From Bolinopsis microptera (Eukaryota > Ctenophora > Tentaculata > Lobata > Bolinopsidae), in assembly GCF_026151205.1 (NCBI RefSeq), contig NW_026971794.1, forward strand, positions 1 through 51,790: a DNA stretch of 51,790 nucleotides. Reading direction: 5' to 3'. The position numbers and the translations under genes are program-made. Shown here piece after piece: positions 2,054 through 31,790 of this stretch (positions are counted from its first letter, which is position 1; each line of letters begins with the position of its first letter). The notes beneath the pieces are model-generated. The model did not search any database and had not been told where the DNA came from. It saw nothing but the letters and a program-made list of their open reading frames with translations.

Positions 2054-3540
2054 TATCATCTCTTTTTGATTATAATGTCAGGATAATTTACAAAGCCGAA
2101 ATGTAAACTCATAACTTCATTCATATTTATATTAATAAATAGGAGGTAATTTCATCGATTTCGAAATTTTACCTGACTGAATATGGCACTTTTTACTCAT
2201 TCAAGTTGGCATTAAATTCATATATAATGCCATTTAAATATCGTGGGAAAGCAGAATTTATTCGAAATCACGAATGAGCAAAATTCTCACCTTTCGCACG
2301 TGCAAACTTTGAGCGGACGTTGCGTGCGCATACAATATTGAATCACCGTAAATTTTTGCATAGCAGTATTTTATATATAGTTTAATAAGCATGCAAAGTT
2401 TCAGAAGATTTCATATAGAACTTGGATCACAACGGGACTCCAAAGTTGATAAAAATGGTGAAAACAGCAATTTTCAGTAATTTTAGCAATTTTCTATCAA
2501 TTTGGGCGTGTCCCCACGTGTGCAACTTTTCGATTTCCAACTTTAAAACTATCCTATAACACAATTTAGACCTTTAAAAAGCAAAATTAAGCTCCACAAC
2601 TCAAGGGATGGCCCAACACCAGAGAATACTAATTCACAACTTTTGTGTTTTTATAAAATTATTCTTCAAAAAAGCACTTACTTCAATAGCGAATATCTTT
2701 ATGAAGGAGCAAAGTAAGAAACTTTTCCGGTAGATTTTCAGAATGCTTGAACAATTATCTAAGATGAAAATGTCCTCAGATTTTGAATAAAATTACTCCT
2801 TAATGGTTTAAAATCGATTTGAAAAGTTATTACTTTGTCAAAAATCAAGTTTTAAAAACACCTAATTTGATAACGTCATCAAGTGATGATGATGAAGATA
2901 AATTATTTTTTGATATAATGTAAACTAAAGTATAAACAATTATCTTTAAAACCTGTGGTTCGAAATGACTGTATCTTTTATACTATTGGATCTACAGACA
3001 CTTAAATGTAGGCTATAATTGACTATAATTGACTGCAAAAGCGTCTATACTATACTTCACGACAATCTGTTGTAAAACAGGGGTTCCAGAAAACCCACTT
3101 CCCGATACTCCTGAAACATGAAATTTTTTTTGCAGTCGATTTGGACAAGGTCTAGACGCCCTGCAAAGTTTCAGATCTCTAACTCAATTTTAACATGGTT
3201 TTTAAGGCACCTGAATATGGCGATTTTGGGTTTTTTACCTAATTTCGTATAACATGCTGGCGCGTATTTTGCGCAAATTTCTTAAAAACCTCCACATAAC
3301 TATTTCTTATTCCTGTCATCTTTAACATTGAATTAGAATGTTTTGAACTTAAATATACCTGCTGAACTACTTTCGATGAGTCTTAATGCCTGGAAAACAA
3401 TAAAGGGGATATACTAGTATAGGGGTAAATAGTATTGTGAATATAAGGGCGACGGTAATGCTTACCAGCATTGTGATTATATATGCATGTCATGTGGCGT
3501 AGCCGTAAACAGTAAGTTAAAATAATTTAATTTAATTAAT
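2054..3540. other. AT-rich intergenic sequence, no gene seen
   Basis: No exon, RNA gene or clear transposon end could be recognised. The text is AT-rich with scattered homopolymer runs, and open frames are short. Confidence 0.5.
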
Positions 3541-3830
3541 TTAATACGGCTGTTCTAGCGTGGATTCTAATCCGATAGGATTACGCCATTCCTGGTTGGA
3601 CGACGTTCGCTGTCCTAGGGCGATCCTATCGCATTTCAGATCGTCGTCCGATCGCTCCCGATCGCTAGGCGCTCGCGGCTCGGATTTTATTTTTGAGAGG
3701 CGATAGGATAGAAAAATCCGAGAGCCTAGCTCTAGGATTTTACGTTTCCGAGAGGTGTGCTCTCGGATTTATGTTTCCGAGAGGTGTGCTCTCGGATTCA
3801 TCATTTCCGGGAGATAAAATGCGTGTTGCG
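3541..3830. repeat. Element end with repeated GATAGGAT and TTTCCGAGAGG motifs
   Basis: Starts with TTAATACGGCTGT, followed by GGATTCTAATCCGATAGGAT. From about 3736 a 28-bp unit containing TTTCCGAGAGGTGTGCTCTC repeats about two and a half times. The beginning matches, in reverse complement, the sequence around 32320-32384 (TAATCCTATC, TTAGAATCC, ACAGCCGTGTTAA), so the two are probably copies of one dispersed family. The family is unnamed here. Confidence 0.45.
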
Positions 3831-3965: not shown

Positions 3966-4034
3966 GGATACGGCCATACTCGGTTGAAAACACCCCATCT
4001 CGTTCGATCCGGAAGTTAAGCAACTGCAGGCCGG
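3966..4034 (+). rRNA. 5S rRNA gene, 5' half (interrupted)
   Basis: Reads GGATACGGCCATACTCGGTT and continues through the conserved GAAGTTAAGCAACTGC to CCGG at 4034. This is the 5' 69 nt of a eukaryotic 5S rRNA. GGATACGGC can pair with GCCGTATCC of the 3' half at 7395-7403 to form the terminal helix. A 3.3-kb foldback element follows immediately, so the gene is split at about nucleotide 69, inside the internal Pol III promoter between the A-box and C-box regions. It is unlikely to make functional 5S RNA. Confidence 0.88.
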
Positions 4035-7000
4035 TAGTAAGGGGAAAAGTGGTCGATTTAAGGGTTCCGTTGGATTTGAATGTTCACAAGGATTTCTCAA
4101 CGGAATATGGTAGTTAGGACCCCTACGAACATAATTAGACTTGTCACCAATTTTGTATCTCACGGAAACACCTCTTTTTACCACTTTTTACCACCTTCTT
4201 ACCACCTTTCTGGTTTGCCAAATATCTTTAGTTGTGAACGTCGTAGAAGGTTGCAAATTAATCGAGGATGTTCATCTCATCAAAGAGAAAAACTTTTGTT
4301 AGAAAACTTTTTACGTTGGATAATCAGCTAATTGGATAATTACCAATTAGCTAATTACCAAAAAAAGTGAAAATTTTTTATTGGCTCAGAATGATTGAAA
4401 TCGTTTGAAACACGGAGAAATGTAGTTTTTAGAAAAACTTCAAAAATTGTTCACTTAAAAATTTTTTCGAGACTTGAAAAAAAGTTTGAAAATTTAAAAA
4501 TATATTATTCCGCCAAAAGTGATCGAATTGCATGAAACGTGGATAAAATGCTTTGGAGAAAAACTTCGAAGATTTCTAGATTAGGGAATACTAAAATCAT
4601 CAATATTTGAAGTTGGAGTTCAGTAAATCTCGACATATTTTATTAATTAGGAATAGCTCAGCGGAAAGGGCTGAACCTGAAAAAGGTTAACCACACAATA
4701 TTAGAGTTTCATAACTAATTACAATACAGCTTTATCAAATTCCACATAAAGAAACAGCACAAAAAGACCATTTAAGATCGAACCGATTTTACCTGCTGTA
4801 CTATCATTTTATTGATTTCAATGATCAAAACCTCTGTACCGTCAATCTTGCCAATCTATACCGGGTATCTGAATGTACCGGACCTCTTATTTACCTCTAT
4901 AATTAGACCCAGTTGTGCAAGAAATGCGATTTCTCACAGGAGTTTCTTTTAGTTTTAACTGTGCACTTTTTGTCACTCTCGCAAGAGGCCCGGTATTATA
5001 GGTAGTATAGGAAGCGAGTGTAAATATACCTTCCATCATCCACTGTGGCTTTATTGTATTGTGAATGCGCATGCCGCTTCGTTTGTTATGCCATATACCT
5101 CAAATAATCCCCATATCTCATTGCCAGGGTCGAGATAGAGCTGGAGATAGCATCGAGAGGTTGCTAGAAATAGCTAGATTTAGAGTAAGAACTGATGGTA
5201 GCTGGGTGGTGCTAGCATGGATGTAGCAGAACGTAGCTACACGGGGTTTCATTGGAGTTGGTTATTTTAATGGCCAAAGAGTGCCGGAACTAAAGTTACT
5301 TAAGATTGCAGTTGAGGGGAAGTGTAAACCACGGTGTAGTCAAGGACACAGAGCTACAGTGCAGGAGTACTACAAAAGAACAGTGCAAGTGATACAGTCT
5401 GCAACAGTAAAACGCCGAAGGAGATAAGATTGTGGCTGCAGAGGAGGAGAGGAGCAGGAACCTGATTGTGTTGGTTGAAAGAAGAGGAGGAAGGAGGGTT
5501 TCCTGCTCAGGTATTTTTGGAAGAGGTGGGGTGAGAACTTATACCCAAGCGACAAGGGTGGGCTGAAAGCGACCAGGTACAGCTATCCGACCTATTAAGA
5601 TCACCGTCCTGAGCTTAACAGCCTTTCATCAGAATCTGATGAAAACAGAAGGACTGACCCACCCTTTTTAGATACAACGAAACCCTTCATATAAATCGAC
5701 TTTTCCGCATGAATTACTTCATGGTATCTTCTTATCAAGGCTACAGACCTTGCCGTACCGGATTTATTGATCGAAGTGAGTCTCTTTAGCCCTCTTCTTC
5801 TTTAGAGCTTTAGGTTAGTGATCAAACTCTTCGCTACTCGCTCTTCACTGGATCTATCAGGACAGATTCACATCTTTTTAGGTCTCAACCAGCCTTAGTT
5901 TTCCTGTTTTCATCATGTAGTACGTTCTGCTACCTCCATTTTAGCACCACCCAGCTTCCATCAGTTCACTCTAAGTCTAGCTTTGTCGGCGTTTTACTGT
6001 TGCAGACTGTATCACTTGCACTGTTCTTTTGCAGTACTCCTGCACTGTAGCTCTGTGTCCCTGACTCCACCGTGGTTTACACTGCCCCTCAACTGCAATC
6101 CTAAGTAACTTTAGTTCCGGCACTCTTTGGCCATTAAAATAACCAACTCCAATGAAACCCCGTGTAGCTACGTTCTGCTACATCCATGCTAGCACCACCC
6201 AGCTACCACCAGTTTACTCTAAATCTAGCTATTTCTAGCAACCTCTCGATGCTATCTCCAGCTCTATCCCGACCCTGGCAATGAGATATAGGGATTATTT
6301 GAGGTATATGGCATAACAAACGAAGCGGCATGCGCATTCACAATACAATAAAGCCACAGTGGATGATGGAAGGTATATTTACACTCGCTTCCTATACCCC
6401 CTATAATACCGGGCCTCTTGCGAGAGTGACAAAAAGTGCACAGTTAAAACTAAAAGAAACTCCTGTGAGAAATCGCATTTCTGGGTTTACTTTTAATTAT
6501 AGGGGTGAATAAGAGGTCCGGTACATTCAGATACTCGGTATAGATTGGCAAGATTGACGGTACAGAGGTTTTGATCATTGAAATCCATAAAATGATAGTA
6601 CAGCAGGTAAAATCGGTTCGATCTTAAATGGTCCTTTTGTGCTGTTTCTTTATGTAGAATTTGATAAAGCTGTATTGTAATTAGTTATGAAACTCTAATA
6701 TTGTGTGGTTAACCTTTTTCAGGTTCAGCCCTTTCCGCTAAGCTATTCCTAATTAATAAAATATGTCGAGATTTACTGAACTCCAACTTCAAATATTGAT
6801 GATTTTAGTATTCCCCAATCTAAAATCTTCGAAGTTTTTCTGCAAAGCATTTTATTTACGTTTCATGCAATTCGATCACTTTTGGCGGAATAATATATTT
6901 TCAAATTTTCAAATTTTTTTTAAGTCTCGAAAAAATTTTTAAGTGAACAATTTTTGAAGTTTTTCTAAAAACTACATTTCTCCGTGTTTCAAACGATTTT

Positions 7001-7352
7001 AATCATTCTGAGCCAATAAAAAATTTTCAATTTTTTTGGTAATTAGCTAATTGGTAATTATCCAATTAGCTGATTATTCAACGTAAAAAGTTTTCTAACA
7101 AAAGTTTTTCTCTTTGATGAGATGAACATCCTCGATTAATTTGCAACCTTCTACGACGTTCCCAACTAAAGATATTTGGCAAACCAGAAAGGTGGTAAGA
7201 AAGTGGTAAAAAGTGGTAAAAAGAGGTGTTTCCGTGAGATACAAAATTGGTGACAAGTCTAATTATGTTCTTAGGGGTCCTAACTACCATATTCCGTTGA
7301 GAAATCCTTGTGAACATTCAAATCCAACGGAATGCCACTTTTCCCCTTACTA
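4035..7352. mobile_element. 3.3-kb foldback element inserted in the 5S rRNA gene
   Basis: The outer ends are TAGTAAGGGGAAAAGTGG and its reverse complement. The left arm (4035 to about 5417) and right arm (about 5988-7352) are inverted copies roughly 1.37 kb long, nearly identical with scattered substitutions and small indels. The spacer (about 5418-5987) carries a partial extra copy of arm sequence at 5925-5990, in the right-arm orientation. The triplet CGG flanks both ends in the 5S gene (4032-4034 and 7353-7355), consistent with a 3-bp target duplication. Short open frames are mirrored in both arms, but there is no transposase. The superfamily is not assigned. Confidence 0.85.
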
Positions 7353-7403
7353 CGGGTTAGTGCTTGGATGGGTGACCGGCTGGGAATTCCCGGTGCCGTA
7401 TCC
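7353..7403 (+). rRNA. 5S rRNA gene, 3' half (interrupted)
   Basis: Reads CGGGTTAGTGCTTGGATGGG then TGACCGGCTGGGAATTCCCGGTGCCGTATCC, the conserved C-box region and 3' end of 5S rRNA. TTTT at 7404-7407 is a Pol III terminator. Joined to the 5' half with one CGG removed, the gene would be about 117 nt, close to the normal 119-121. Confidence 0.88.
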
Positions 7404-7407
7404 TTTT

Positions 7408-8410
7408 GTTATATTTCCGAAGAATTGTTTTACTGAACAGAAGAAATTGTGTATGGCTTTTTCAGAATTGCAGTGGTTATTAAGAATAGCATTTTATCCT
7501 TAGCAATATAGTCTATGTTCAAACGCAAGGAAATGTTTCCAAATGTCAGAATAACATGGCTTAGAATAGCTACAAAGTTTTGTCTGAAAGTGAAAGGGCT
7601 TAGTTGTTTCATTCTAAGATCTATCTGAAACATTCTGCCAGGGGGTAGGAAGCGGGGGGCAGGGGGGGCCATCGCCCCCCTTACCTGAGGACCCCAGGCT
7701 ATTATGTTCATTAACATAGCCTGGTGAGACTGAACCCTCTAATACGCGCAGGTCTCTCGGACGGGCGCGTTTTTGCGCGTGGAATGCTGAGCGCGCAAAA
7801 TATATGTTTTGTAATGATAATCGCATATCGGTAGACCTTTTAAAAGCAGTATGTGACAGAGTGGCAACAAGCCGACAAGCGACATGTTGTAAGTTACTAG
7901 TGCGGTAGCGTTGTGATACTTTATGAAGTTTCTCATTTGTTTTGGTCAATTTGCAATTGCAATTGCAATCCCGAACTTTGACGGATCAAAGGTTTCATGA
8001 TGGTATAACTAGTATTACTATTACTGAATTGTTAATGATCACACGACAACTCGCCTAGCATTCCACACCAAAAACGCGACCAATGTCATTCCACCATATT
8101 ATATATCAATCGTGTTAAAGAACACAAAAGCCGGAGGTCTAAAGGTTAATACAATCAAGTGGAAAAAGGTGGTAGACATATCACAGAATTTATGTCAACT
8201 TTCATATTTTAATCATTTTATTACATAATTTAAAGATCATATTCTAATAATTTTATTACATAATTTAAAGAGAACGGTTAATAATGGAGTCATTCGTAAA
8301 CTATTGACAAATAGCTATTCACGAGAGTGCTCAGTTCACAGTTGTCAGTGCTATAGCCAGTACCATTACCAAATACACAAATCACTCAGAATATTTTCAG
8401 CTTTAACTTA
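7408..8410. other. Unassigned sequence with one transposon-like end
   Basis: A GC-rich patch at 7639-7695 is followed by TTACCTGAGGACCCCAGGCT (7681-7700). That motif recurs inverted at 20699-20719. A small hairpin (CCAGGCTAT with ATAGCCTGG) lies at about 7693-7724. Overlapping short open frames on the minus strand (7430-7949) have no recognisable motifs and are not called as genes. Confidence 0.35.
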
Positions 8411-8528
8411 CCCGGGGACCCCGGGCTTTGTGTTCTCAAACACAGTAGTTATATTAATATTAGATTTTAGTAAATATGCTTGATTCATGACTGATACGTG
8501 TATGAAAACCTAAAACGGGGTCCCCAGG
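8411..8528. mobile_element. Short TA-flanked MITE
   Basis: The ends are CCCGGGGACCCCG and CGGGGTCCCCAGG, imperfect inverted repeats, each abutting TA (8409-8410 and 8529-8530). It is about 118 bp long and non-coding. It appears related to the CCTGAGGACCCCAGG ends at 7684 and 20704-20718. Confidence 0.5.
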
Positions 8529-8530
8529 TA

Positions 8531-8940
8531 CTCAATCGATTAGATATGTAAAAGATTCCGATACGAGGGATTATCATACCTCATGCTAGCTATGCATTTT
8601 CGTATGATACAGAATGACATTAACTGCGGAGCACCGTACTGAGTTTCTACAACAAGGTCTACACTAAACTGAAACAGTAAACATGTGAAGATGATTGATC
8701 ACTCAGTACTCGACCAACTGCACGTAGCATACTTTAACACGTACTACTTCAAGTAGTCCTTAGAGACTATTAAAAATCTAAACCCAAATTAGAGTGTAGA
8801 ACGTATGTTGAAAACCATTACCCGTACGACTACGACAAATTATACCAACATCCTTATTTGGTCATTATAAAGAGGTTCATAAAAGGAAAACATATCCAAA
8901 TAATTTTTTATCAATTAAGATAATTTTACGTTCATAAGGC
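8531..8940. other. AT-rich spacer
   Basis: No coding, RNA or transposon feature could be recognised. Confidence 0.4.
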
Positions 8941-9950
8941 TCAAAGAGTTTGTTGGCCTATTCTTGCTGCAAGGAGAGCTCTTCGCTCTAGAGGTAGGTC
9001 TTTATCAAACAAGGATTGTGGGACGAGCTTTTCAGTCAGGTCCATGTTTGCCTCTTCAGGACTGCCGTGGTGATGGCTGATACTATGTCCACACTCTTGT
9101 ACCTTTGAAGACTCTGTAACAAACGGGTGTCGGCGGAGGCTGTAGAACCAAGCTCTCAAATAAACGAAGACAACAAAGTGAGCCATCTTCTGCACGTTTC
9201 TCTTCTTCGTACAGTGAATTGGTATCTAGTGAAGAAAAGCCATCTTCATAATGTAGAATGTAGATGGACTTAGCCATCCATCTGGCATGGTGGTCAGCTC
9301 CAGGTCTTTGTATCTGGAAGACGTATCCTTTCTTCATATCTATGCTTTCTCTATGGATTAGTTTAGCAAGCTCTAGGAATTCCTTGTAATGTTCTGGGCT
9401 GGTTGTTGAGTTGACGGATGTGATTAATAAAGGATAGAATATCTCCTACGTCGTTCCTTTAGCGCGTAGGGATATCGGGAAGGACGATGTTCTGCAGATC
9501 GATTCCCAGGAGGTCTTCATGATCTTGAAGAGGGTTACTTCGAGTGATATTGTGTCACCGAACAGTTGCTTGGAGGCAGATCCTCTTACAAGCTCCGCCT
9601 CCAGGACGTGATGTCTGCAGGCCATCCAGAGGATCTGTCGATTGAGGACCTGCTGAAGAGAAGTACATGCTCTTTTGTGAACTCCAGTATTGGATGATGT
9701 CGTATCAAATCCAACGGCTATTATTTTATCTGCTAGGTCCGGTCGTCGAGAATCTTCTTCACTTTGTCTGCTTCGTCCTAGTCCTTTTAGACTGGAGAGT
9801 AACTAGTCGTACAGATTGCGAGTATCTTGTTCTCCTCCTCTTGTACTAGGACCATAGCCAGTCTGTTTACTTTACTAAACCCTCCGAGGTCTGTTTTCGT
9901 CAAAATTTATCTGTCTGACATCAGAGGTAAAGTCTCTTTTTATCTTTGCT
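8941..9950 (-). pseudogene. Transposase-like relic with CRHH motif
   Basis: Reading the minus strand across several frames gives ordered fragments of one protein: TSDVRQINFDENRPRRV, VNRLAMVLVQEEENKILAIC, DEADKVKKILDDR, ADKIIAVGFDTTSSNTGVHK, LWMACRHHVLEAEL, GADHHARWMAKSIYIL, KMAHFVVFVYLRAWF and LTEKLVPQSLFDKDLP, ending at a stop at 8941. Frameshifts near 9215 and 9470, and stop codons near 9730, 9795 and 9885, break the frame, so it is a pseudogene. From memory, the FDTTSSNTG and CRHH arrangement recurs in many uncharacterised repeat-encoded proteins of invertebrates. It resembles the second catalytic Asp and CxxH of hAT-type DDE transposases; that assignment is inference. No matching terminal repeats were found around it. 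Confidence 0.6.
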
Positions 9951-10810
9951 GCTTACTCTGATCGGACTGTGACAACGTTCAGTGGACTTTGAGAGGGAAA
10001 ACTGCTTCATATCCCCGTGTCTCCACTGAGCAGTGAGATGCAGTGTCTCCTCAAACCGTCACTGAGGGAAAGAAAATAAGCTACTACGTGTGAAAATGAG
10101 GAGAAAATGTTCAACTTCTATCATGAAATTACCAAATTAACAAATCTGATTCATTTCTAATCAAAGATGAATATGCAAGGCGGCTTTTAGTTTTAACAAC
10201 CAGGGTTTAAGCCAGGAAGGATAGTTTTATTTTAAAATAATGTATACCTGATTTTTAGAGATACAACTGCAGCCAAGACTGATATCAAGACGATTGAACT
10301 CCGCAAATTTCTGGCCAGAAATAGATCATCTTTCATTATTGTAGATCAGCTCCTGAAAAATAGGTGTGCGTTTAGAAATCTATTTAGAATTTATAAGCTA
10401 AGTCTTATAATATTCCAGTTACGTGGGATGAGTTGCATGGGTACAAATTGTCGGAAAAGTGATTGATTACGTAATATAAAGTGGTTATGTAATATACAAA
10501 CAAACATAAACACAAATTCATGGGATAAGTGCGTGGCTGTATTAATTGACGTTGAATGATCCATGTTACGTGTCATATGGAATGTGGTATCTTGAAAATT
10601 CCCAACACGTTTGGGATGTAAAATAAACTGTGTCCTTAACAGTGAACATTCTTTTTAAATTTTTGACGGAAATTACCAGTAAGTGAAGAAAAAATAAAAC
10701 ATTGTAACCCAAATATCAACTACCGTCTTCAACCGGCGAAGTTTTTCTTTCTCTTAGTAGGGGTGAGCGATTGAAGGGGTGATAGAGGTGGTAGCGTAAC
10801 TAAGTCTAAA
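9951..10810. other. Spacer, possibly upstream remnant of the pseudogene
   Basis: The first few tens of bases may continue the N-terminal part of the decayed transposase-like gene. The remainder is AT-rich and shows no gene. Confidence 0.3.
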
Positions 10811-10818
10811 GGGTCGAT

Positions 10819-12451
10819 CAGGAGGTGACCGGGACATGATTTTAGGCCTGACCGGGACCGGGACCGGGACCGGGATACAAAATGTGACTTGACCGGGACT
10901 GAGATTATCAATTTACCGTGACCGGGACCAATAATTTCTGGGATTTCTATCTTACCGGGACCGGGACCGGGACCAACAATCCAATTTTACCGGGATGACC
11001 GGGATGACCGGGACCAAAACTGTATTCTCATATTGAAAGCTGCAACTTTCATTTACATTATAATTGAACAATTTGAATAAGTAATAACTAGAATATTAAA
11101 TTAGAAAAAACTTTTAAAAAACCGTCAATATGGGGCATGGGCCTAATGTACTACACCAATAATGTTCATGTACTGATTACTCAAGTTCACCCTCATTCCT
11201 CACTCCTCAATCAATGATCCCTCAAATTATTCAACAGTTTCATTCTCCAATTCCAATTGACAATTGGGCGTAGCCCGAGTTGAAAACTTGATGTTAGTTT
11301 GCACTTATGAGTTATGTAACGATATTAGTTACCTAAACTTGTTTAGGCAATTTTAAACATTGTGTTATTTGGCTCAGAGGTTGTTTAAAGATGAAATTCA
11401 CAATGAATGAAAGTAAAAACTTATAAATCACAGTGAATGAATTATGTGAAAGATCCCGGTCAAAATCCCGGCAAATTTGAGTGCTTGACCGGACCGGGAC
11501 CGGGACCAAGAATCCTGAATTAACCGGGACGGGACCGGGACCGGGATCATAAATCAGCATTGACCGGGACCGGGTGGGGGGTGATTGCAACGTCAATTAA
11601 TGTCAATTAATGTCAATTAATGTCAATTAATGTCAATTAATGTCAATGTCAGTTTGGCAAAATTTGGAATACTGACATTAATTGACAACGATTATTTTTC
11701 GACCAGAGATTATGTAGTTCTACCATATTTTTAGCACTTTAGAACGTTTATATCATCAATTTATTCACTACTTTTACATATGGAAATGTGAAATGTGAAA
11801 AATTCAGATCATTAAACAATAAAACTAAAATAAAACGGTTTTCCGAAATTTAATTTTCTTAAATGGGCGTGGCCATCCAAGGGCGTGGTTCTCAACATCA
11901 TCAGAACTTAAAACCCACATTAACGAAATGCCTTCATGACATTTATATTTGAATAACGAATCTTAAACAGCTAACATTACTCCTTCATGCTAAAAAAGCC
12001 GATTCTAGATATTTTACCTGTATAAGATACCAATAAAATATGGGCGTGGCCGGTGGGGACCGAAGATGGAAGAGTTGGAAGCTAAATTTTTTTTGGTGGT
12101 CTTTGAACCTCAGGATCAACAGATAAGAACATAATCATAATTATTCAAGGACATTTTGTTTTTTTTTTGAACCGGTCTAACTTACATAGACGTGAATATC
12201 TATCGAATAATGATAATCTCAAATTTCAAGACAAATTAATGTCAATTAATGTCAATTAATGTCAATTAATGTCAATTAATGTCAATGTCAGTTTGGGGTT
12301 TTATGGAATACTGACATTAATTGACGTTGCATCACCCCCGGACCGGGACCGCGACCGGGATGAAAAATGTGACTTGACCCGTTGACCGGGACCGGGACCG
12401 GGATAGCTCAAAATTGCCAATCCCGGTACCGGGATTCCCGGTCACCTGCTG
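10819..12451. mobile_element. hAT-like non-autonomous element with 8-bp TSD
   Basis: The ends are CAGGAGGTGACCGGGA and, inverted, CAGCAGGTGACCGGGA, matching the CAG-type termini of hAT elements. The octamer GGGTCGAT is duplicated exactly on both sides (10811-10818 and 12452-12459), the hallmark 8-bp hAT target duplication. Many GGGACC units sit near both ends (10827-11007, 11450-11574, 12340-12450), which could be subterminal transposase-binding sites. There is no transposase gene. A second element is nested inside at about 11575-12339. Confidence 0.82.
11575..12339. mobile_element. Nested element with 10-bp repeats at both ends
   Basis: The ends read GGGGGTGATTGCAACGTCAA and, inverted, GGGGGTGATGCAACGTCAAT. 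Both ends carry a 10-bp tandem repeat, GTCAATTAAT (about five units each, at 11592-11646 and 12235-12285), followed by TGTCAGTTTGG and TGGAATACTGACATTAATTG in the same orientation. The flanks are GGACCGGG on both sides, which may be an 8-bp target duplication, but they lie in low-complexity GGGACC repeats so this is not decisive. No open frame. Confidence 0.6.
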
Positions 12452-12459
12452 GGGTCGAT

Positions 12460-12840
12460 CACTTTACCGTCTGTACGCGACAATTCACGTAACGTACTTA
12501 AATAATAGTTATTGACACGGTATTGTGTCGAATGATTTAGGGACAGTTCACATATTACGTAATTAGGTTATCACTATTGGCCAATTCTTACACCTCCCCA
12601 CCCCCACTACGTTATCAATTTTACAGATAGTATAGCTATTGTTATGTGTCATAATAACACTAGCGTAATCTAAATCATTTGATGATTTGAAACCCCCGCC
12701 CTGCCCCATCGGCTGATCGGCACGCCCGAGAGCGCGGTAAAATATAGAAATATATGCTGAAGTGAGTGTGGTTTATTAAAACTTTCGGATACATTTTATG
12801 AATGAATTTGTGCGTGACTATAAAATTATGGCATGACTAG
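12460..12840. other. Intergenic spacer
   Basis: No feature recognised. The sequence just downstream (12841 onward) is duplicated at 16966-17198. Confidence 0.35.
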
Positions 12841-13092
12841 AGCCGCGCACACGTGCCAGCTACCACACATTTGAAACTTATTCTTACAATAACACTAATT
12901 ACAGTGGAATGTGTAATGTCAATGGGAGCGGTGTGAACAGAGCTGAGTGTAGCCGTGTGTACGGAGGAGCTGTATTAAGTGTCATCTAAGAAGATAATAT
13001 GCCATTATTCCGTTTTATTAATATTATAGTATTTGGCGACTGGCTGGCCGATGGTGCTGTGTATCTTTTGGAAGGACAATACAAGGTCAGCA
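12841..13092. repeat. Duplicated segment D2, copy 1
   Basis: Matches 16966-17198 in the same orientation (landmarks CACGTGCCAGCTACCACA and GTGTATCTTTTGGAAGG). The second copy lacks many single bases. This copy contains the candidate exon at 12999. Confidence 0.7.
12999..13085 (+). CDS. Candidate first exon, 29 codons
   Basis: An ATG at 12999 opens a frame that contains FGDWLADGAVYLLEGQYK and ends at an AAG|GTCAGC donor after 13085. The stretch is conserved at amino-acid level more than its surroundings would suggest, because a diverged copy of the segment at 16966-17198 keeps the same landmark sequence, although that copy has base losses. An alternative start of the exon is an AG acceptor at 13028-13029. 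No downstream exon could be linked and I do not recognise the protein. If unspliced, the frame stops after 54 codons. Confidence 0.33.
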
Positions 13093-14066
13093 ATATAAAG
13101 TATATCCCGGGTCAAAATCGGAAAAAATTAGAATATTTATATTCTTCGTTAAGATTTACATGATGAACTATATTTTTCGCTTAGATTCGCAAGATAAGCC
13201 TGTTTTAGGACTAGTACATGGATTTACATCCAAATTGGTCAAAAATTGGCTGAGTTATGAGCTTTAAAAAATATGCCCACATTTGGGCATACGATTTTGC
13301 CCAAATTTGCTTTTGCCCTAAATTCGATCAAACTTCAATATTTTTTAATGAGACTAACTCTATGTGAAAGATATACCTCAGTGTTTGTTGAATATAGTGA
13401 TTACTAAGTAAAAAGACCTCTATGAAAAAAATTGGGAAAATTGCACATAATATTATCTCGGTTCGGAATACTAGCCAAAATTATGACTTTATTAAAATTG
13501 AAATAACTCTATCAGTTTTCAATAGTTTTGCAAGAACTTTTGGAATCGATTAAGAATTGCATTTCAAGCTTATTGTGCCGGCAAAAATTGTTGATGTAGG
13601 CCTCCAAGGAGATATCCGGGTCAAAATCGGAAAAAATCCTATATTTTAATATACTTTAATATGGTTGCCCCCCCCCCCCCCCCCCCCCCCCCAATGTTTG
13701 AGTGACACACTAACTATGCAGTTTTACCTGTTTAGAGGGGTTTTCAAAGAAAGTTTTAGTTCCCAAAGTCCGTCTCAAATACCAAAAGCAAAACTACCAT
13801 ACCATTAGCTTTAAACCTGGGATATCACTAATTTTACAAATAATAACATAATATCGAGTATGGAGGCCGGAGGGGTTAGAGGATGGTATTAAACTAAAAG
13901 TATAACAGCTAGGCTGTAATAATATCCAAGATTGTCAGAAAATATCGTCTAATCAAGCCAGAAAAGTTTGGTAACTTATCGACTATCGAGTAATCGCACG
14001 TACGACAGGTTTCTCGTTTATCTCACCAAAAACTTCAGCAGCTTTTTTTCTCATCGTCAGATTCAC
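13086..14066. other. Non-coding sequence with a 25-C run
   Basis: CCGGGTCAAAATCGGAAAAA occurs twice (about 13110 and 13617), suggesting a short dispersed repeat. A run of 25 cytosines lies at 13668-13692. No gene was recognised. Confidence 0.45.
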
Positions 14067-14991
14067 TTATTCCATACGTAATGACCCTCCTGCTTCTATA
14101 TCGTCCTCTTCAGCTTCTGTCTTTACTGCTCTCACCGCGGCCATCTGTAAATGGGGGGTTGTAAAAAGATAAAAAAAGTAGTATACAGTTTTCAGCCAAT
14201 CAGAAGACAGAATGAATCAAACGGTTTTTCTTTCCAAACTGATCGCTTGTTCAGGTTAGACGATACGAAATTTCAGTGGCCTTTTACTCCCAAGTTATAG
14301 ACATATTTCATTAAAAACACTGTTTGTGGCTCTCGCAAGCTGATCTGCAAATTTTATAGCAAACTTAATATTGTGATAGTGAATATTTTACCTTGAGCGG
14401 GCCCGTCACAGTTGACAAAAATAAGTATCTCGACGAGGGAGCTGGGAGAGATAGAACTTAGCTAAAATGATAGGGAAAGGGTTAAACAAAGTTTTGAAAA
14501 CATTAAAAACGAAATAAGCAGCATTAATAACAAACATGATGAGCCATAATCAGAGTAACACACCACGTAACCAATTGCCATGGTTACGCGCAAGTTGAAG
14601 TAACACAGTTACGATAGATATTGATATAATTTCATAAATATAGCCGAAAAGACAGACAAGTAAGTATTTTAGTTGAGGTTATGATATGTTAAAGAGTAAA
14701 AGGTTTTGCAATTCAGCTGGCTGCCAAAATCAGCGGTCAATCCAAAGATAGATTTTAGTGACGATCGTATAATAAACTACATCGTCACTAAAATCTCATT
14801 ATATGTAACTACTGACAGTTCTGCCGACAGTTCCGCCCAATCTAGATCAATTGCTTCCATGGGATGATGCGACGAATCAAAACCAAGTTTTAAAAACAAC
14901 CTTTCGTTGGTTGTACGTAAATCCGGTCCTCTGTCAAGGAGCTGGTCGGATCCACACTTGCCGGTGAGGAACAATTACTGAAAACTGTCAT
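14067..14991 (-). CDS. Probable three-exon microprotein gene, 72 aa
   Basis: Exons, minus strand: 14901-14991, 14392-14441 and 14067-14144. The 91, 50 and 78 nt join in frame (phase 1, then phase 0) through GT-AG introns. The second exon has a good pyrimidine-rich acceptor (TTCTATCTCTCCCAG) and a GTAAAAT donor; the third has TTTACAG. The product starts MTVFSNCSSPASVD, contains DRIYVQPTK, SRYLFLSTVTGPLK and an acidic stretch EAEEDD, and ends GGSLRME before a TAA stop. It has no signal peptide or membrane segment. The internal acidic tail and Ser/Thr-rich head suggest a small soluble protein. I do not recognise the family; the three-way agreement of frame and splice sites is the main support. 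A small inverted repeat lies in intron 1. Confidence 0.5.
14750..14796. repeat. 16-bp-arm hairpin
   Basis: AGATTTTAGTGACGAT at 14750-14765 and its reverse complement at 14781-14796 form a perfect stem with a 15-nt loop. It sits in intron 1 of the candidate microprotein gene. It may be a short MITE remnant. Confidence 0.7.
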
Positions 14992-15730
14992 GATATTTCA
15001 CTTTCACTGCTTTTTACTAAAAAAATGGCTTAATTTGCATGATTTTAATCCATCCACCCTATTGTTACTAGTAACATAGATTACTATTGAAAATATAGGT
15101 AGAGTGAATGGGTTCAGCCACAGACCTCAAATTACATTGCCCGTATGCATGGAAACGAGTCATCTTTAAGCAATCTAAGTAGTTTTGTATGTATCATCGC
15201 GTCTGGATCTGTCAGCATTGATTTACTTTAGCATATTATGACGTTTATACTTGTCCGGCTAAACACGGCTTTGTATAGATACGATAGGAAGTCTGTCTCA
15301 TTAGGAAGAACTAATAAGAATTATTAAGAACTCATGCAGACAATTTTTAGAAGTGCAGCAACGTGTGTCAAGGTGTGCTACAAATAGAATTATCATTGTC
15401 AGGTATATTACAGCAGCTTCCTGTCTTTTAGCTTTGTTTTCTAAGAATTGCTACGATGTTGCTAGGGGACCACTATGGCGTTACAATGGTGTTGCTGTGG
15501 CGTTGCTAAGGTACCCTTCAGGCTCTGTTCAGACCATAAGTTGCTTTAAAAGGTCAAATAAATATACTCATGGTTTACTTTAGGAAGTTTCTGGAGTCAA
15601 AGAAATAACAACACAGATTTTGGCTGAATTTGCTTGAACTTATTCAAAACAATTCATTTCGGCGTCCGGACTCTACGGCTTGAGACACTCTTAAATGCAC
15701 TCGCTGTTTACATTTGAAAGTTTGCATGAT
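14992..15730. other. Putative upstream region of the microprotein gene
   Basis: AT-rich, no RNA gene or transposon end seen. A 76-codon plus-strand frame (15353-15583) has no recognisable motif and is not called. Confidence 0.3.
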
Positions 15731-16811
15731 AATAACGACCCAGGAATATCTATAATGTATAGTACAGTATGACTATCGTTTTCAGAATAAGTTCAAACCC
15801 GCTATGTGTTCAAATCAGTGTTTCATTTCATCGGCTGTATCATAGGTCAAGATAAATATTTCTTGATGAGATAAAAGCTTACTTTCGAAGAACATTTCCT
15901 GTAACCATGGGCACCCTAATTTGATATGGAATTCTATCTATTGTGTCGAAAATATGAAACAAATATTTCCCGCCGTAGAGTCCTAGTCTCTACTGCGCCG
16001 CCGTAGAGTCTTACGTCGTTGAGTCTCACACCCTATAAGAGTACCGGTAACCGGTACCCATCGTTTAGATGGATACAGGCACCCTGGGATCTCCAAATAA
16101 TATGTAGATGCTGAAATCATTGGATGATGATTAATCACTCTACACTCGACTGTCACGTGACTTTTGAAACCTGTTCTCTAGGTGGCCATGAATAACCCTA
16201 TAATCTGATTCCAACCCTAATCCAACCCAATCTCTAACAAAAGCATATGCCAAAACCCTAACCCTTTAGAGCGAGATATTTGACCAATTTCCTTATATAA
16301 TGGACATATCACGTGATCAAGACAGCTATTCGTCAATATCTCGCCAGGGGAGCATTTTAATGTCATGAGGGGTGATTCGGAATCAGCGTTCCAACTGTCG
16401 GGGGGGCTTTTTAGAAAAATCTTGAAGGTTTGACTGTAGAGTGATTTAGCACGCCTCGGCAACCATTCACCCTACATATATTGTCAATAATAATAAACAT
16501 TCATCAGTAGTTATAGGGTGTTAGAGATCATAATGATACAAATTAAACCATTTTTTGATTAAACAAAGCAAAAAAAACGGCCCTTCGTAAACAGGCGGGG
16601 AAGTGAGTGATTTGAACAAAGTTACCGTACCATAAGTCGAAAACTAAAAGTGATGGCAAATCCTCGAAAGAGGTGTTTGATCACCAAACACTGTGCAGAT
16701 ATTAGGAAAATATATTATTATTATCTGTATCAGGTATTCTTATAAACCAGAGGGCAATGAGATCTGGCGTCTCTTGATTCTCTATAGCGGTTTGCGACTA
16801 ATAGTTACTGA
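15731..16811. repeat. 1.08-kb duplicated segment, copy 1
   Basis: Direct duplicate of 17323-18397. The two copies differ mainly by single-base insertions and deletions. It includes a near-palindrome GTACCGGTAACCGGTAC and degenerate CCCTAA-type tracts near 16200-16262. Confidence 0.85.
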
Positions 16812-16814
16812 TAA

Positions 16815-16964
16815 AAAAGAACAACGAAGGACCACTAATAAATGAAGTAAGTGCACGCCAGTATACGATATCCCTCACCTTCTTCCTGAGTCAGGGGTCT
16901 GTTGCCATAGGCACGAGGGAAGAAGAGCGCAGCGGTTAGGGTGGGTTTAGCAATGGTTAATGAT
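16815..16964. repeat. Duplicated segment D1, copy 1 (degenerate)
   Basis: Matches 19313-19465 in the same orientation (landmark TCCCTCACCTTCTTCCTG). The short coding start seen in the other copy is frameshifted here by a missing base (ATGGCAACAGAC). Confidence 0.7.
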
Positions 16965-16965
16965 G

Positions 16966-17198
16966 AGCCGCGCGCACGTGCCAGCTACCACAATTTGAAA
17001 ATTATTCTTACAGTAAGCTAATTATAGTGGAATGTGAATGTCAAATGGGAGCGGTTGAACAAACATGTACCGTGGTAGAGGAGCTGTTTATTCAACTAAG
17101 AAGTAAAAACCCTTATTCCTTTTATTAATTTACAGTATTTGGCGACGGCTGGCCCATGGTCTGTGTATCTTTTGGAAGGGGAAAAACAAGGTCAGCAA
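16966..17198. repeat. Duplicated segment D2, copy 2 (degenerate)
   Basis: Matches 12841-13092, but many single bases are missing, destroying the candidate exon frame. It abuts D1 directly here, whereas the intact copies of D1 and D2 are about 6 kb apart. Confidence 0.7.
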
Positions 17199-17322
17199 AT
17201 TTTAAATTTGTTTTTTCCTAAACCTTTTAAACAACAAGAATAGAGATTAGAAAAGGCGGGCCACTGATTAAAAACCTGAGCACTTGCCATGATTGTGCGT
17301 GTTATGGGGTCTTAAAATGGGT

Positions 17323-18397
17323 ATTAACGACCCGGAAAACCCATAATGTATAGTAATATAACTATCGTTTCAGATAATTCAACCCCCTGATATTTTTCAA
17401 ATCAGTGTTTCTTTTTATCGCTGTACTAGGTCAAGATAAAAATTTCTTTATGGATAAAAACTTACTTTCAAGAAACATTTTCCTGTAACCATGGGCACCC
17501 TAATTTGTTATGGAATTCTATCTATTTTGATCGAAAATATGAAACAAATATTTCCCGCCGTAGAAGTCCTAGTCTCTACTGCGCCGCCGTAGAGTCTTAC
17601 GTCGTTGAGTCTCACACCCTATAAGAGTACCGGTAACCGGTACCATCGTTTAGATGGATACAGGCACCCTGGGGATCTCCAAATAATATGTAGATGGCTG
17701 AAATCATTGGATGATGATTAATCACTCTACACTCGAACTCACGTGACTTTTGAAACCTGTTCTCTAGGTGGCCATGATAACCCTATAATCTGATTCCAAC
17801 CCTAATCCAACCCAATCTCTAACAAAAGCATATGCCAAAACCCTAACCTTTAGAACGAGATATTTGAACAATTTCATTATATAATGGACATATCACGTGA
17901 TCAAGACAGCTATTTCGCCAATATCTCGCCAGGGGAGCATTTTAATGTCATGAGGGGTGATTCGGAATCAGCGTTTCCAACTGTCGGGGGGCTTTTTAGA
18001 AAAATCTTGAAGGGTTGACTGTAGAGTGATTTAGCACGCTCGGCAACCATTCACCCTACATATATTGTCAATAATAATAAACATTCATCAGTAGTTATAG
18101 GGGTGTTAGAGTCATAATGATACAAATTAAACCATTTTTTGATTAAACAAAGCAAAAAACGGCCCTTCGTAAACAGGCGGGGAAGTGAGTGATTTGAACA
18201 AAGTTACCGTACCATAAGTCGAAAAAACTAAAAGTGATGGCAAAATCCTCGAAAGAGGTGTTTGATCACCAAACACTGTGCAGATATTTGAAAATATATT
18301 ATTATATCTGTATCAGGTATTCTTATAAACCAGAGGGCAATGAGATCTGGCGTCTCTGATTCACTATAGCGGGTTTTATCGACTAATAGTTTACTGT
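17323..18397. repeat. 1.08-kb duplicated segment, copy 2
   Basis: Second direct copy of 15731-16811. It has more homopolymer-type differences, suggesting that this copy comes from lower-quality consensus or a second allele. Confidence 0.85.
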
Positions 18398-19312
18398 TAA
18401 CAATGTAGGGTCAGTGAAATATAAGTCTTAAATTCTTAAAAAATTGATCGGGAAATTAAATATTTATCTTAGATTACAGACATTTTTCGTAGACTAAAAT
18501 ATTTTAAAGATACCTTAGTATTACTGCCATACTGTAAATTGATTAAAATGTCCTCGCCTACTAGTTTGCCTGGGAAACAGCTGGACTGTCATCGAACTGC
18601 GGGCGAAACGGCCGTTTTCGTGAGTGAAAATACTAAAACATGCCGTGAAATGGTATCAAAAACTAAGGTTTTTTGTTTTCTGTTTCGACCCAGCCGTCTA
18701 TAAGCTCGTTGACAGTTGCAGTCTCAGCTATTTTTTGTATCACGTGAAAGTTGCATCCTGGGAATTGGATTTTGAACGTGGTCGGGACAGATTATCCCGG
18801 TATGGACCGGTTTGGTTTCCTTTCACTATTGATTTTTGGCAAACCTCGAAATTAAAAGCCTATTAGTTGTTCTGTAGATCTAATGATTCCAAGTTTACTC
18901 CCGTTTAATTCTCCACATGAACTAGTGAGTTAATGGGTTCATAGTTATGAATCGTCAAATACTCGTGAAATATCCGTGTAGTGGAGCATTTGGGACAGGG
19001 CCATTTACTTTGTACTCAGGTCACAACAGAGATATTTTAGAGGTTCATCGGCTCACTCTTGAGTGTCGTTTCATGTAGAATCATTTTGTAGACCAGCTTG
19101 TGTTTTGGTCAAATCTATGAATCTGAGTGCACTTATTTCCATAATACTCTCGAGACCTTTAATTCGAGGGGATTTCCCTCCCCACTCTAATGTAGCCGTC
19201 CAGCTCGTATAACAAACTCATGACGAAACATTAGCTAATAAGGGGATTAAATAAATTAGCAAACACCTAGACCCCTAGACGATCAGCCAAGCAGCCAGGG
19301 CTGCGCTACAAC
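18398..19312. other. Unassigned sequence
   Basis: An 80-codon plus-strand open frame (18624-18866) shows no family motif and has no supporting splice structure. Nothing else was recognised. Confidence 0.3.
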
Positions 19313-19465
19313 AAAGAACAACGATGGACCACTAAATAAATGAAGTAATGTGCACGCCAGTAAACGATATCCCTCACCTTCTTCCTGGGTCAGGGGTCTG
19401 TTTGCCATAGCAACGAGGGAAGAAGAGCGGCAGCGGTTAGGGTGGGTTTTGCAATGGTTAATGAT
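19313..19465. repeat. Duplicated segment D1, copy 2
   Basis: Intact counterpart of 16815-16964. See those entries for the rearrangement. Confidence 0.7.
19378..19408 (-). CDS. Candidate 10-codon first coding exon
   Basis: The minus strand reads ATG at 19408, MANRPLTQEE, then a strong GAAG|GTGAGG donor. A following exon was not found. The same segment at 16815-16964 is frameshifted, which suggests only this copy is usable. It is short, so chance is a real possibility. Confidence 0.3.
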
Positions 19466-20642
19466 TTTACCGAAGTTTGCTAAAAACGTCGGTGAATAGT
19501 ATTCTATGTCATAAACAGCCAATGATCAGCTATAATAGTACGGTTTATTTACACGGTGACTCGTCTACTTGAAACTGTCTCAATGGTAACAGAGTTTAAA
19601 ATGTTCTTTACTCTTAGTCTTAGTCTTACAGGAGATCTACACGGTGAATGTAAGTGGGTCTGGAATCTATGGCGTAAGACTCTACGGTGGAAAACTTTAC
19701 GGTGGTGCCGTACAAAAACAACAGGTGTAAAAAACAGGACTATTAGTGGCAAAGTCTATAATCAGGCATGAGATAGTAAGATAAAGAACTTAAAGAAATA
19801 ATGCGAGCAAACAAATGTTATATTTTTTATCGATATTGATAAATTGGCAGGTTGTCCCTCATTAAATTTATGAGTTACAGGAGTTGCAAGAGTGGCAAAT
19901 TCGAATTCGAAACAATAATTTGGATTAAACAGTTGTTTGCCTAAAATTTGTGACAAAGAACAGGCAAGGGGATATACAAGGATTTCTAAAGTTTGATATT
20001 ACACGATATAATTGTGTCAGTGATCACAAACGCCTGTCCATCCCAGGTAAATATCAATATATAATCAGGTACTAGATAGTAAGAAATAATGCGAGCTCTC
20101 AGCATATATCTCAGAGTCAGTATCACTATCGCAATATATTGTGGATTGTACGACTGAAAGATGATGAAGTTTTATTAAATTCCGAGACAAAAGATTTAAC
20201 TGCAGCTTCCTGAGAACAGAACACGGGGATTTGAAACTTAAAACACACGAGATCGCCGGAACCAGTACAAATGAGTGTAGCTATATTTTAACTAATTATC
20301 TTAGAAGGACCTGTTTATGGTATAGTTGACTCATGAGATCAAAACCTTCACTACAAGTGCTTCGTCATAAAAGTAAAAGTTGAAAGTATACGTGATCCGG
20401 ATGCAATAACAGATATATTGAACGTTCAAATCATTTTACACCTACGCTAAAAACTTGTCCACCAACACTGTACAAACTACAAAAATATTTGATTGGCAGA
20501 CGGAAGATAAAGAACGAATTATGAACTATAGACCACAGAGTGATCGTTGAATATCATAAAAGAACGGCACAAGTGGCACAACACACAAAGGCGATCTGAA
20601 CTGATATGGAAGTAGACCTAGGCAAAATTGAAAGAATCGCAC
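19466..20642. other. Unassigned intergenic sequence
   Basis: Overlapping short open frames on both strands (19549-19771) mirror each other and lack motifs. No RNA gene or transposon end recognised. Confidence 0.3.
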
Positions 20643-20645
20643 TAA

Positions 20646-22475
20646 CTGGGCCGCGCTCAGCCTGTCATTCCGCCTAATCTCTATTAATGAACATAATAGC
20701 CTGGGGTCCTCAGGTAAAAAGCAAGCACTGATAACAGAAACAAAGAATCATATTTCACTTGGGTTGTTCCGTTGACCAAAACAAGTGCTAACAGACTAGA
20801 TGGTTGATGAAATAAGCCTCTTGACTCCCATTGTGTGAAATTACTAACACTAGCAGTAACCGGTGTTTTCTTTAAGGTGGGGTCAAGAGACATTAGACAA
20901 TAACACACGGATTAAAGAGGAATTAAAGAGGAATTAAAGAGGAATTAAAGAGGAATTAAAGAGGAATTAAACAGGAATTAAACAGGAATTAAACAGGAAT
21001 TTAAGATGAAATTACCAATGAGAACACCAACGAACTCGTCTTGGCTATACATCAATTAGAAAATGTTATTTATTAAATTTGGGTTTTTACACAAGCCCAT
21101 TTAGATGAGCTATACAATACTCTGTAAAAGATACATAATATAGAATGTTAATTGTCTGGGGGATGACTGTAAAATTTGGGAAAAAAAGTATCCTGTGGTT
21201 AAACAAAGCACAGATACTAACAGAAACAAATCAAACGTTTGGTTTGATCCACACTACTGATATGTGAGATCAGACACAACAAATTATGACGCTCTCAAAG
21301 CATTTCACAATAAAGGATAATGATAATATAGATTAACTCCCGATTTCAATTCAGGGAGACTAATCTATTCTTGCAAAAATGTTAAAACAAACTAAGAATA
21401 TTTTACAACATCTAGGATTAAGGGACAAAGTGACTAATATAGAGTACGAGAACACATGATTTCCATCACAATGCAATCTATTAAATAAGTAATAACTAGG
21501 ATTAAATATCTTAATCCATCATCAAAGATTGTACAGTATGAATATCAGACATTAAAGTGTTTTTCTACGATCCAATTCAGAATTTTGACACTAACTGTCA
21601 AGGAAAAAGGTGCAGGGCATCTATAGATCTATCTATCTATAGATCACATCTAAGAGATTTCTTTCGATCACATGCCTTCTTTGAAAACGACAAAAAGTAG
21701 CCGGGCCCGAACAGGCAGTCCGAAAGAAATAAAAACTATAACAACAGACAGTATAATGGTCAACATCAATCTGACATATTTTGTCCTTCTAGTACCCCTG
21801 AACCTCTGATTTGGATTTAAGTAACACGACCTTAGTTCGGAAATTTAATTCAAATGCATAGCATGAGTATATAAAAGAAAATCTTCAGATATAACTGCAA
21901 ACTGATTGACAAACTAAACCATCCCTCATCAGAGTGGTAGTCATGACAGGACCATGTTACTTTGATATTAAGTAAAGCTAACATCTTTCGCTAGGGTCTT
22001 TAAAAACGAAGTAAATGTCGGGCAGCTAAATATAAACAAGTGTAGACAACTGGACGATTTTTAAAAAATGTCGTACGAGCAAGAAAAGGTCATCAAAATA
22101 TATTTTAACTACAGGAACAACATAAACATGAAGAGGTACCGATGTAACTGTGCAGTGTGATAACACGAGGTGCAGTGAGCAGCACATCACTGATGACACT
22201 CATATCGCTCGATTTTACAATCCAATAATCAAATTTTACAATCTAACTCATCGCGCGGCTCCTCTAGCTAATACGTTACTTTTCTCCAATTGGCAGTTTG
22301 CGTGCACGTGTCTTTTCTGAGGCCCCAATTGGTTCTAAATGATCACGTGAATGCTGGTCACGCGCACATCAACTTCCAATGAGCGTACTGCCATTGTTTT
22401 CTGAGGCGATGGAGGATCGTAAATCACTCAGCCCGAATATAGATTTGGCGGAATGACAGGCTGAGCGCGGCCCAG
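20646..22475. mobile_element. TAA-flanked, Harbinger-like non-autonomous element
   Basis: The inverted ends are about 29 bp, beginning CTGGGCCGCGCTCAGCCTGT and continuing CATTCCGCC. TAA flanks both ends (20643-20645 and 22476-22478). A 3-bp TWA duplication is typical of PIF/Harbinger elements; the superfamily call is inference. There is no transposase. Inside are an 11-bp tandem repeat (20910-21003) and one end of another family (20699-20719). Confidence 0.75.
20910..21003. repeat. 11-bp tandem repeat, about 8 units
   Basis: The unit GAATTAAAGAG is repeated, with the last three units changed to GAATTAAACAG. It lies inside the TAA-flanked element. Confidence 0.9.
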
Positions 22476-22509
22476 TAACGCCCCCCATGAAATCTGGACA
22501 AGGGGCCAA

Positions 22510-23490: not shown

Positions 23491-23499
23491 TGGATGTAA

Positions 23500-23829
23500 T
23501 ACTGATTGGTTTCATATACTAATTATAGAAAACGTGATATTTGGCCCACAGATTTATAGGAAAATACGCGAATTTGGTCCTCAGATTTAAAGGAAAATGC
23601 GCATTTGATGCGGAGAACTGAAAAAATCGCGATTTGTCGTGAGGCCAGGATCTGAAAAATCGCGAAAAAACCGCACAGGGGGGGAAAATTTTTTTTATGT
23701 CCTTACCCTAAAAATTCAGGTTTTTTGGGGGGCAAAGGGCCCCAAAAAAATATTTAAAATTTGCCCCCCCATAAAGAAAATCATTCCTAAAACCCCTGCT
23801 TTCCTGCTAAAAATTGATTAGAATATACC
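23500..23829. other. Transition into low-quality satellite sequence
   Basis: AT-rich text with increasing homopolymer runs. No gene. Confidence 0.4.
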
Positions 23830-31615: not shown

Positions 31616-31790
31616 ACTTTTCCCCTGAATTTTAAATTTGAAGGGTACTCCCAAAAAAATCCTTTAAGTTAACTTAAACGATTACAAAGGGTTTAACCTA
31701 ATTTAACTTGAAGATCCTACAAGGAAACCTTAAGTTAACTTGAAGAGTACTCCCAAGGTAACTAGAGTTAACTCTTATAGAGAACAAAAT
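31616..31790. repeat. Terminal fragment of the 33-bp array
   Basis: A few degenerate units with TTAACTTGAAGA spacing follow the 325-bp repeats. Confidence 0.7.

Follow-up and report, generated by a model that had tools for sequence, protein, structure and literature searches.

A 5S rRNA gene on contig NW_026971794.1 of the ctenophore Bolinopsis microptera is split by a foldback transposon, and the split gene lies in a second DNA transposon. The stretch analysed, here called the window, comprises positions 1 to 51,790 of this contig (C35:1-51790); the assembly searched contains 264.65 Mb in 232 contigs. We use the name FB-1 for the foldback splitting the 5S gene and 5S-TE for the transposon holding that gene; 5S-FB is a second foldback family bearing 5S genes and is distinct from FB-1. 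The locus is read as the result of three nested events, the insertion of 5S-TE, the insertion of FB-1 into its 5S gene and the insertion of a hAT-like element, with a probability of about 0.9. FB-1 in the window simply illustrates how one transposon can insert into a second one. The unusual point, beyond the FB-1 hit, is the presence of complete 5S genes in DNA transposons of at least two families. How 5S genes come to be dispersed outside their arrays has long been asked, and the vehicles can be read directly here: DNA transposons delimited by inverted repeats and by target duplications, among them a foldback whose two arms each hold a 5S gene.

A foldback element splits a 5S rRNA gene

FB-1 and the two parts of the broken gene are located as follows.
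3966-4034, + strand: broken 5S rRNA gene, 5′ part (from comparison with the 5S of the genome)
4032-4034, no strand: CGG, left copy of the 3-bp target duplication (from the FB-1 junction and paralogue overlap)
4035-7352, no strand: FB-1 foldback, 3318 bp, non-autonomous (from 18-bp ends and inverted arms)
7353-7355, no strand: CGG, right copy of the 3-bp target duplication (from the FB-1 junction and paralogue overlap)
7356-7403 (7353-7403 with the right CGG), + strand: broken 5S rRNA gene, 3′ part (from comparison with the 5S of the genome)

The outermost 18 bp of FB-1 are TAGTAAGGGGAAAAGTGG at 4035-4052, and their reverse complement is found at 7335-7352. The arms (4065-5418 and 5986-7332) are 95-99% complementary in five long blocks. 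Foldback elements consist for the most part of long inverted arms, and those of FB-1 take up about 1.35 kb each of 3318 bp. The longest stop-to-stop frame within the element has 83 codons.

Joined with one CGG, the two 5S halves make a gene of 117 nt with 95-96% identity to the genome's own 118-nt 5S. Alignment of uninterrupted paralogues to both window flanks gave an exact 3-bp overlap at CGG in five of six cases (L026, L028, L032, L038 and L041); in the sixth, L033, the left alignment ends short of the junction. CGG corresponds to 5S positions 68-70 and is the sole overlap of the two flanks on the 118-nt 5S of L028. In the usual layout of the internal promoter, these positions come after the A box and before the C box. 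The initial annotation had described the two halves of one 5S gene flanking a coding-less 3.3-kb inverted-repeat element, with CGG on both sides, a 117-nt gene on removal of one CGG and a break within the internal promoter. Coordinates, arms, reading frames and paralogue alignments agree with this description, as do the presumed box positions.

An Rfam scan at the gathering threshold gave no match for the split 5S. At an E-value threshold, a match of 37.8 bits (cut-off 38) starts at 3966; its alignment enters the foldback end up to 4075 and not the true 3′ half. The split-5S junction was found only at the window, among the best 40 of 320 candidates scored, and 91 5S-like cores (counted with up to 3 mismatches) are intact at the FB-1 insertion position.

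FB-1 copies lie at unrelated sites

An exact search of the assembly for the FB-1 end identified 274 sites (130 forward, 144 reverse). Hand-matching of 41 end pairs among the matches listed gave element lengths of 374-7761 bp, with a median of 3303. The flanks were surveyed in 35 copies: 14 were fetched whole, 20 as paired flanks, and the window copy was added. L012 was excluded, as neighbouring copies abut there, and for L011, which has a duplicated left end, the outer one was used. A 3-bp target site duplication (TSD) is present in 34 of the 35 copies; shuffling the right against the left flanks 2000 times gave 3.0 on average and at most 11. Among the left-hand 3-mers, 18 kinds occur, with seven TTA, four TAT, two TAA and fewer than four of any other. 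Comparison by exact 12-base words and by blastn, with 44-60 bp on each side, found 5S flanks at the window copy alone. Three other flanks share words of 9-12 bases with 5S (E 0.027), which we take as chance.

A family specific for a site in 5S had been considered in the initial annotation, with a chance insertion as the alternative, and collecting the flanks of further copies had been proposed. The copies read, from a family that is larger (274 ends), lie at unrelated sites, and 5S flanks occur only in the window. This does not fit a site-specific family, and the varied 3-bp TSDs together with the non-5S sites support the alternative. The FB-1 insertion in 5S looks like a chance hit of a common foldback.

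Between the two arms of the same element, the median difference in 12 copies is 1.4% (range 0-2.8%); between arms of different elements it is 3.3%, with a minimum of 1.0% (264 comparisons). The shift fits homogenisation within an FB-1 element, though the ranges overlap. At C7:6883424-6887356 (L012), two additional FB-1 ends lie directly against a complete FB-1 copy. Only TA is shared at these joints (CCCCTTAC-TA-GTAAGGGG), and a 3-bp TSD is absent there, as if the arrangement came from joined element ends.

A relative of FB-1 with open reading frames

The 7761-bp element L036 (C2:15969825-15977585; TSD TTT) has the same 18-bp ends as FB-1. Its outer 121-151 bp are 86-89% identical to those of FB-1, and a small asymmetry of the ends, CATTCC versus TCGATTTAAGGGTTCC, is common to both. 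From these shared ends, FB-1 is classed as a non-autonomous relative of this 7.8-kb element. L036 contains open reading frames (ORFs) of 469 and 897 codons. The same protein is encoded in one open frame of 1438 codons at C12:13745766 and C5:1989202, and the copies are 99-100% identical; an FB-1-type end is located at C5:1988330, near the C5 ORF. Two more places match the protein at 99%, one with a stop and one without a start in one piece. The near-identical protein copies, two of them in an open 1438-codon frame, point to a young family, which suggests that the L036 type has been active recently. The 1438-codon ORF probably encodes the transposase for FB-1.

The protein has a CXC domain (PF03638) at its C-terminus. 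An alignment of five proteins showed invariant acidic residues D547, E683, D685, D711, D713 and D770, in the order E-x-D ... D-x-D ... D, which in our own reading resembles XPG/PIN nucleases. The best PDB profile match of this alignment is a weak one to MARF1 (E 0.21), which we take to be a NYN/PIN protein; a single protein of the family matched an unrelated chain in PDB at E 1.9. With Pfam, DUF6589 was found in three of the five proteins at a best E of 0.0004, and the other matches were worse than 0.01.

Transposon context of the 5S gene

The second transposon and its parts have the following positions in the window.
3541-3544, no strand: TTAA, 4-bp target duplication left of the 5S-TE copy, in an AT-rich flank
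3545-32376, + strand: 5S-TE copy with left end TACGGCTGTTC and right end ..CAGCCGTG, broken by FB-1 and the hAT-like insert
7404-7638, + strand: 5S-TE sequence downstream of 5S, 94.7-99.2% identical to six other copies (alignments from 7353)
7639-23798, no strand: nested hAT-like insert of about 16 kb, CAGGGGGTAGG ... AACCCCTG, with an imperfect duplication of about 8 bp, CATTCTGC / CTTTCCTGC
23804-30502, + strand: 33-bp tandem repeats of 5S-TE, approximate limits, sequence looks error-rich
32377-32380, no strand: TTAA, 4-bp target duplication right of the 5S-TE copy

5S-TE ends in an 11-bp terminal inverted repeat (TIR), CACGGCTGTTC...GAACAGCCGTG. In L026, L028 and the window, the 5S gene lies about 380-420 bp from the left end and is followed by 33-bp tandem repeats; L026 and L028 contain a single 5S each, close to the left end, and both have the 11-bp inverted ends. 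The TSDs are ACTG (L026), GCGC (L028) and TTAA (window). Seventeen left ends were found in the assembly with up to 3 mismatches.

To the left of the window 5S, the flank is 94.8-96.4% identical to L026, L028, L038 and L041 over 278-290 bp, and 88% identical to L032 over 483 bp. The right flank is 94.7-99.2% identical to six 5S-TE copies over 238-284 bp. With array genes, the window shares the 5S and at most about 15 bp upstream, and downstream of the gene mostly TTTTGCAAAT is found in array genes and TTTTGTTATATTTC in the window gene. The window 5S was therefore rejected as array DNA, since its flanks are those of 5S-TE; as judged from these comparisons, the split gene is a passenger of 5S-TE.

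Two further 5S-TE copies, L042 and L043 (C6:3964500-3982000), lie about 16 kb apart in opposite orientation and have the same left flank. This pair is probably a segmental inverted duplication.

Order of events and alternative explanations

The 5S-TE family, characterised by the 11-bp TIR, 4-bp TSDs and 33-bp tandem repeats, would have spread a complete 5S gene through the genome, and one copy would have inserted at TTAA in the window. FB-1 would have been mobilised in trans by a transposase recognising its ends, most likely one from the 7.8-kb family, which shares its 18-bp termini. With a 3-bp stagger and little preference for sequence, it would have entered the 5S of the 5S-TE copy between the promoter boxes, thereby breaking the gene. 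The hAT-like element would have inserted further downstream in 5S-TE, before or after FB-1. Elements of the hAT group have 8-bp TSDs and ends of the CAGGG type. The ends of the insert fit this type and its duplication is imperfect; the label is our assumption, made from the terminal motif.

Several observations weigh against the nested reading or parts of it. The structure was read from the assembled contig, in which 23-32 kb looks error-rich. The right inverted repeat of the window 5S-TE copy is interrupted and intact over 8 bp only, a clean 4-bp TSD is found in three 5S-TE copies only, L027 fits the TSD AGCC only on the assumption that 3 bp are missing from its left end, and the candidate 5S-TE ends of L093 show no TSD. 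One of the 35 FB-1 copies, L075/L076, is without a TSD. The FB-1 TSDs lean to T/A, with T as first base in 22 of 35, and thus the target choice is not wholly random. Finally, Pfam searches of the FB-1-related ORF identified no known transposase domain and no nuclease family.

The small size of C35, its error-rich part and the single occurrence of the split-5S junction among the best 40 of 320 candidates would be in line with an assembly chimera, in which FB-1 was misjoined into 5S. Such a misjoin is not expected to leave a perfect 3-bp duplication beside complete FB-1 ends, at a point where five paralogous sites overlap, and we regard it as very improbable. Still less probable is a 5S-targeting FB-1 family like Dada-5S with the window copy as the typical site. 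Non-5S flanks in 34 of the 35 copies read, 91 5S-like cores uninterrupted at the position and a TSD of 3 bp and not 6-7 bp speak against it; 5S-specific targeting was rejected for the copies read, even though the window copy does sit in a 5S gene and fish have DNA transposons that target 5S genes, according to the accessible part of the source (PMC8869645). The window gene could also be an ordinary dispersed 5S gene and 5S-TE no transposon but flanking DNA copied by segmental duplication. Segmental duplicates would look like L042 and L043, which share their left flank and run in opposite directions, and the modest number of 17 left ends and the three clean TSDs are compatible with this. However, the flanks differ between copies on different contigs and stop at identical inverted ends, and matching 4-bp duplications are present in three copies, which makes this explanation unlikely. 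We therefore prefer the reading as nested insertions of transposons.

5S-FB, a foldback family with 5S genes in both arms

The 5S-FB elements L021-L025 (on C3, C130 and C11) are 4.5-5.1 kb long and have long inverted arms starting with CAACCCTGGCGCG. Each arm holds a 5S gene and 33-bp repeats, and the two 5S genes face each other. The TSDs are 5 bp long (ATATT, AATTA, CTTAT, ATATA and GAATA). The 5S is identical to the array gene or differs from it at one position (118 or 117 of 118 matching) in nine of the ten arms; the remaining one, the right arm of L025, has a disturbance in the first 5 bases of its 5S and matches at 113 of 113. The family member L050 has a 4-bp TSD (GTAA). The 10,364-bp element L029/L030 shows a TTATA TSD by eye, and in a longer relative, L031, no 5S match was seen and the TSD is not clear. 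The 5S-bearing part of 5S-FB has about 90-93% identity to that of four 5S-TE copies. This similarity suggests a transfer of the 5S unit from one transposon family to another, in one direction or the other.

Positions 1874-6842 of L029, inside the 10.4-kb 5S-bearing foldback, contain two ORFs, one with a GIY-YIG domain and the other, of 566 codons, with no match in Pfam. The latter looks reverse-transcriptase-like to us, and this part is perhaps a nested Penelope-like element, a label that we assume here.

Share and divergence of transposon-borne 5S genes

From the 91 uninterrupted 5S-like cores, 46 are located inside three array regions, which were delimited by hand, and 45 outside. Sorted by their downstream sequence, the non-array cores comprise 27 of the transposon type (up to 2 mismatches), 8 of the array type and 10 of neither. 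Exact cores number 57; 21 of these are of the transposon type, every one outside the arrays. By this count, DNA transposons seem to carry about one in three of the 5S-like genes detected in the genome. In several elements, L021, L023, L028 and L038 among others, the 5S is identical to the array gene (118 of 118). Identity drops to as little as about 95.6% in other full-length transposon-borne copies, and L040 has 88 nt of the gene only.

The two families were compared using 10 5S-FB arms and 10 of 11 5S-TE copies; L027 was dropped, having an insertion just after the 5S. The divergence is 0.022 in the 5S, 0.095 downstream and 0.170 in the 35 bp upstream, and fixed differences are found in 0/119 columns of the 5S, 8/255 downstream and 3/43 upstream, the upstream figures being affected by the shifted right arm of L025. 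Within 5S-FB (10 arms, between-element pairs), the diversity is 0.0136 in the 5S, a value that includes the disturbed first 5 bases of the L025 right arm and is 0.0051 without them, 0.0111 in the 830 bp upstream and 0.0198 downstream. A recount within 5S-FB gave 0.5% in the 5S versus 1.6% downstream. For 5S-TE (10 copies, without L027), the values are 0.036 in the 5S, 0.062 upstream and 0.048 downstream. A Fisher comparison (p 0.001-0.009) was not relied on, since copies had been picked partly for identity to the array gene and were biased.

The contrast is weaker within the families than between them. Constraint on the 5S, or its conversion by array genes, may be at work but is not established. 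The 5S gene may serve 5S-TE as an RNA polymerase III (Pol III) unit. Rather doubtful, in our view, is a wider proposal built on these comparisons. In it, the complete 5S genes of the two DNA transposon families would remain identical or almost identical to the array genes as the surrounding transposon sequence diverges. Selection or gene conversion would hold the 5S in step with the host as a functional Pol III unit, and new dispersed 5S genes would arise continually from cut-and-paste transposons. If transcribed, transposon-borne 5S genes would be a test case for mobile elements feeding a multigene family versus only using its promoter.

Comparison with known elements

Like FB-1 in the window, Dada elements including Dada-5S are DNA transposons inside multicopy small RNA genes, as given in the available parts of two sources (PMC8869645, PMC3706591). 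The same parts describe 6-7 bp TSDs, a largely target-specific insertion and, for Dada-U6 and Dada-U1, no terminal inverted repeats (PMC8869645, PMC3706591). FB-1 differs from these by its 3-bp TSDs, unrelated sites and long inverted arms. We rejected it as a Dada member, with a 3-bp TSD in 34 of 35 copies and 1 of 35 copies in 5S (flanks compared with 5S only). Long inverted arms and a foldback structure, as in FB-1, are found in the accessible descriptions of Tetris (PMC4079207) and Galileo (PMC3573991). These are, as far as described there, Drosophila families, and Galileo is classed with the P elements. The ends and the 3-bp TSD of FB-1 mark another family.

Academ elements have TSDs of 3-4 bp and an XPG-like nuclease. 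FB-1 resembles them in the 3-bp TSD (34 of 35 copies, TTT of L036 included), and its relative has a long ORF with conserved acidic residues. Pfam and PDB profile searches of the FB-1-related protein gave no match supporting an assignment to Academ. Our best guess is that the FB-1 family is perhaps Academ-like. Harbinger TSDs are TWA, whereas those of FB-1 are not confined to this motif (18 kinds of 3-mer; seven TTA and two TAA in 35). For Zator, TSDs of 3 bp are reported, and for the PHIS group none or 1-4 bp, in the part of the source at hand (PMC10045372). The TSD length of Zator and PIF/Harbinger-type elements is compatible with the 3 bp of FB-1; no Zator or PIF/Harbinger transposase was matched by the FB-1-related ORF in Pfam searches.

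5S sequence in a dispersed mobile family, as in 5S-TE, is also found in SINE3, a group of 5S-derived short interspersed nuclear elements. SINE3 is a retroposon, whereas 5S-TE has terminal inverted repeats and 4-bp TSDs. Cassandra (PMC10886601) and Ajax (PMC10853983) are mobile elements with 5S rRNA sequence like 5S-TE and 5S-FB; according to the excerpts available, both are long terminal repeat retrotransposons, and Ajax has part of the 5S only. In contrast, 5S-TE and 5S-FB have a complete 5S, terminal inverted repeats and TSDs of fixed length. Long terminal direct repeats holding 5S, as in the TRIM retrotransposons Cassandra and Ajax, are not present in L026 and L028, which have one 5S and inverted ends. 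A DNA transposon with a complete 5S gene was not named in the accessible parts of the openly licensed literature, among the matches listed.

Other features of the window

Just left of the 5S-TE copy, positions 2600-3480 are a high-copy dispersed repeat, which is found in 39 other places at 93-100% identity among the best 40 of 2112 candidates. Among the same candidates, no allelic empty site of C35 was seen, the left flank being mostly this repeat, and the last 65-80 bases of the left-flank query had no match elsewhere. The region 23700-32400 looks rich in homopolymer-like errors in comparison with other 5S-TE copies, and repeat coordinates there are approximate. Further downstream, positions 38968-42935 contain a retrotransposon of the LINE (long interspersed nuclear element) type, in which the part 39684-42935 encodes endonuclease, reverse transcriptase and RNase H domains.

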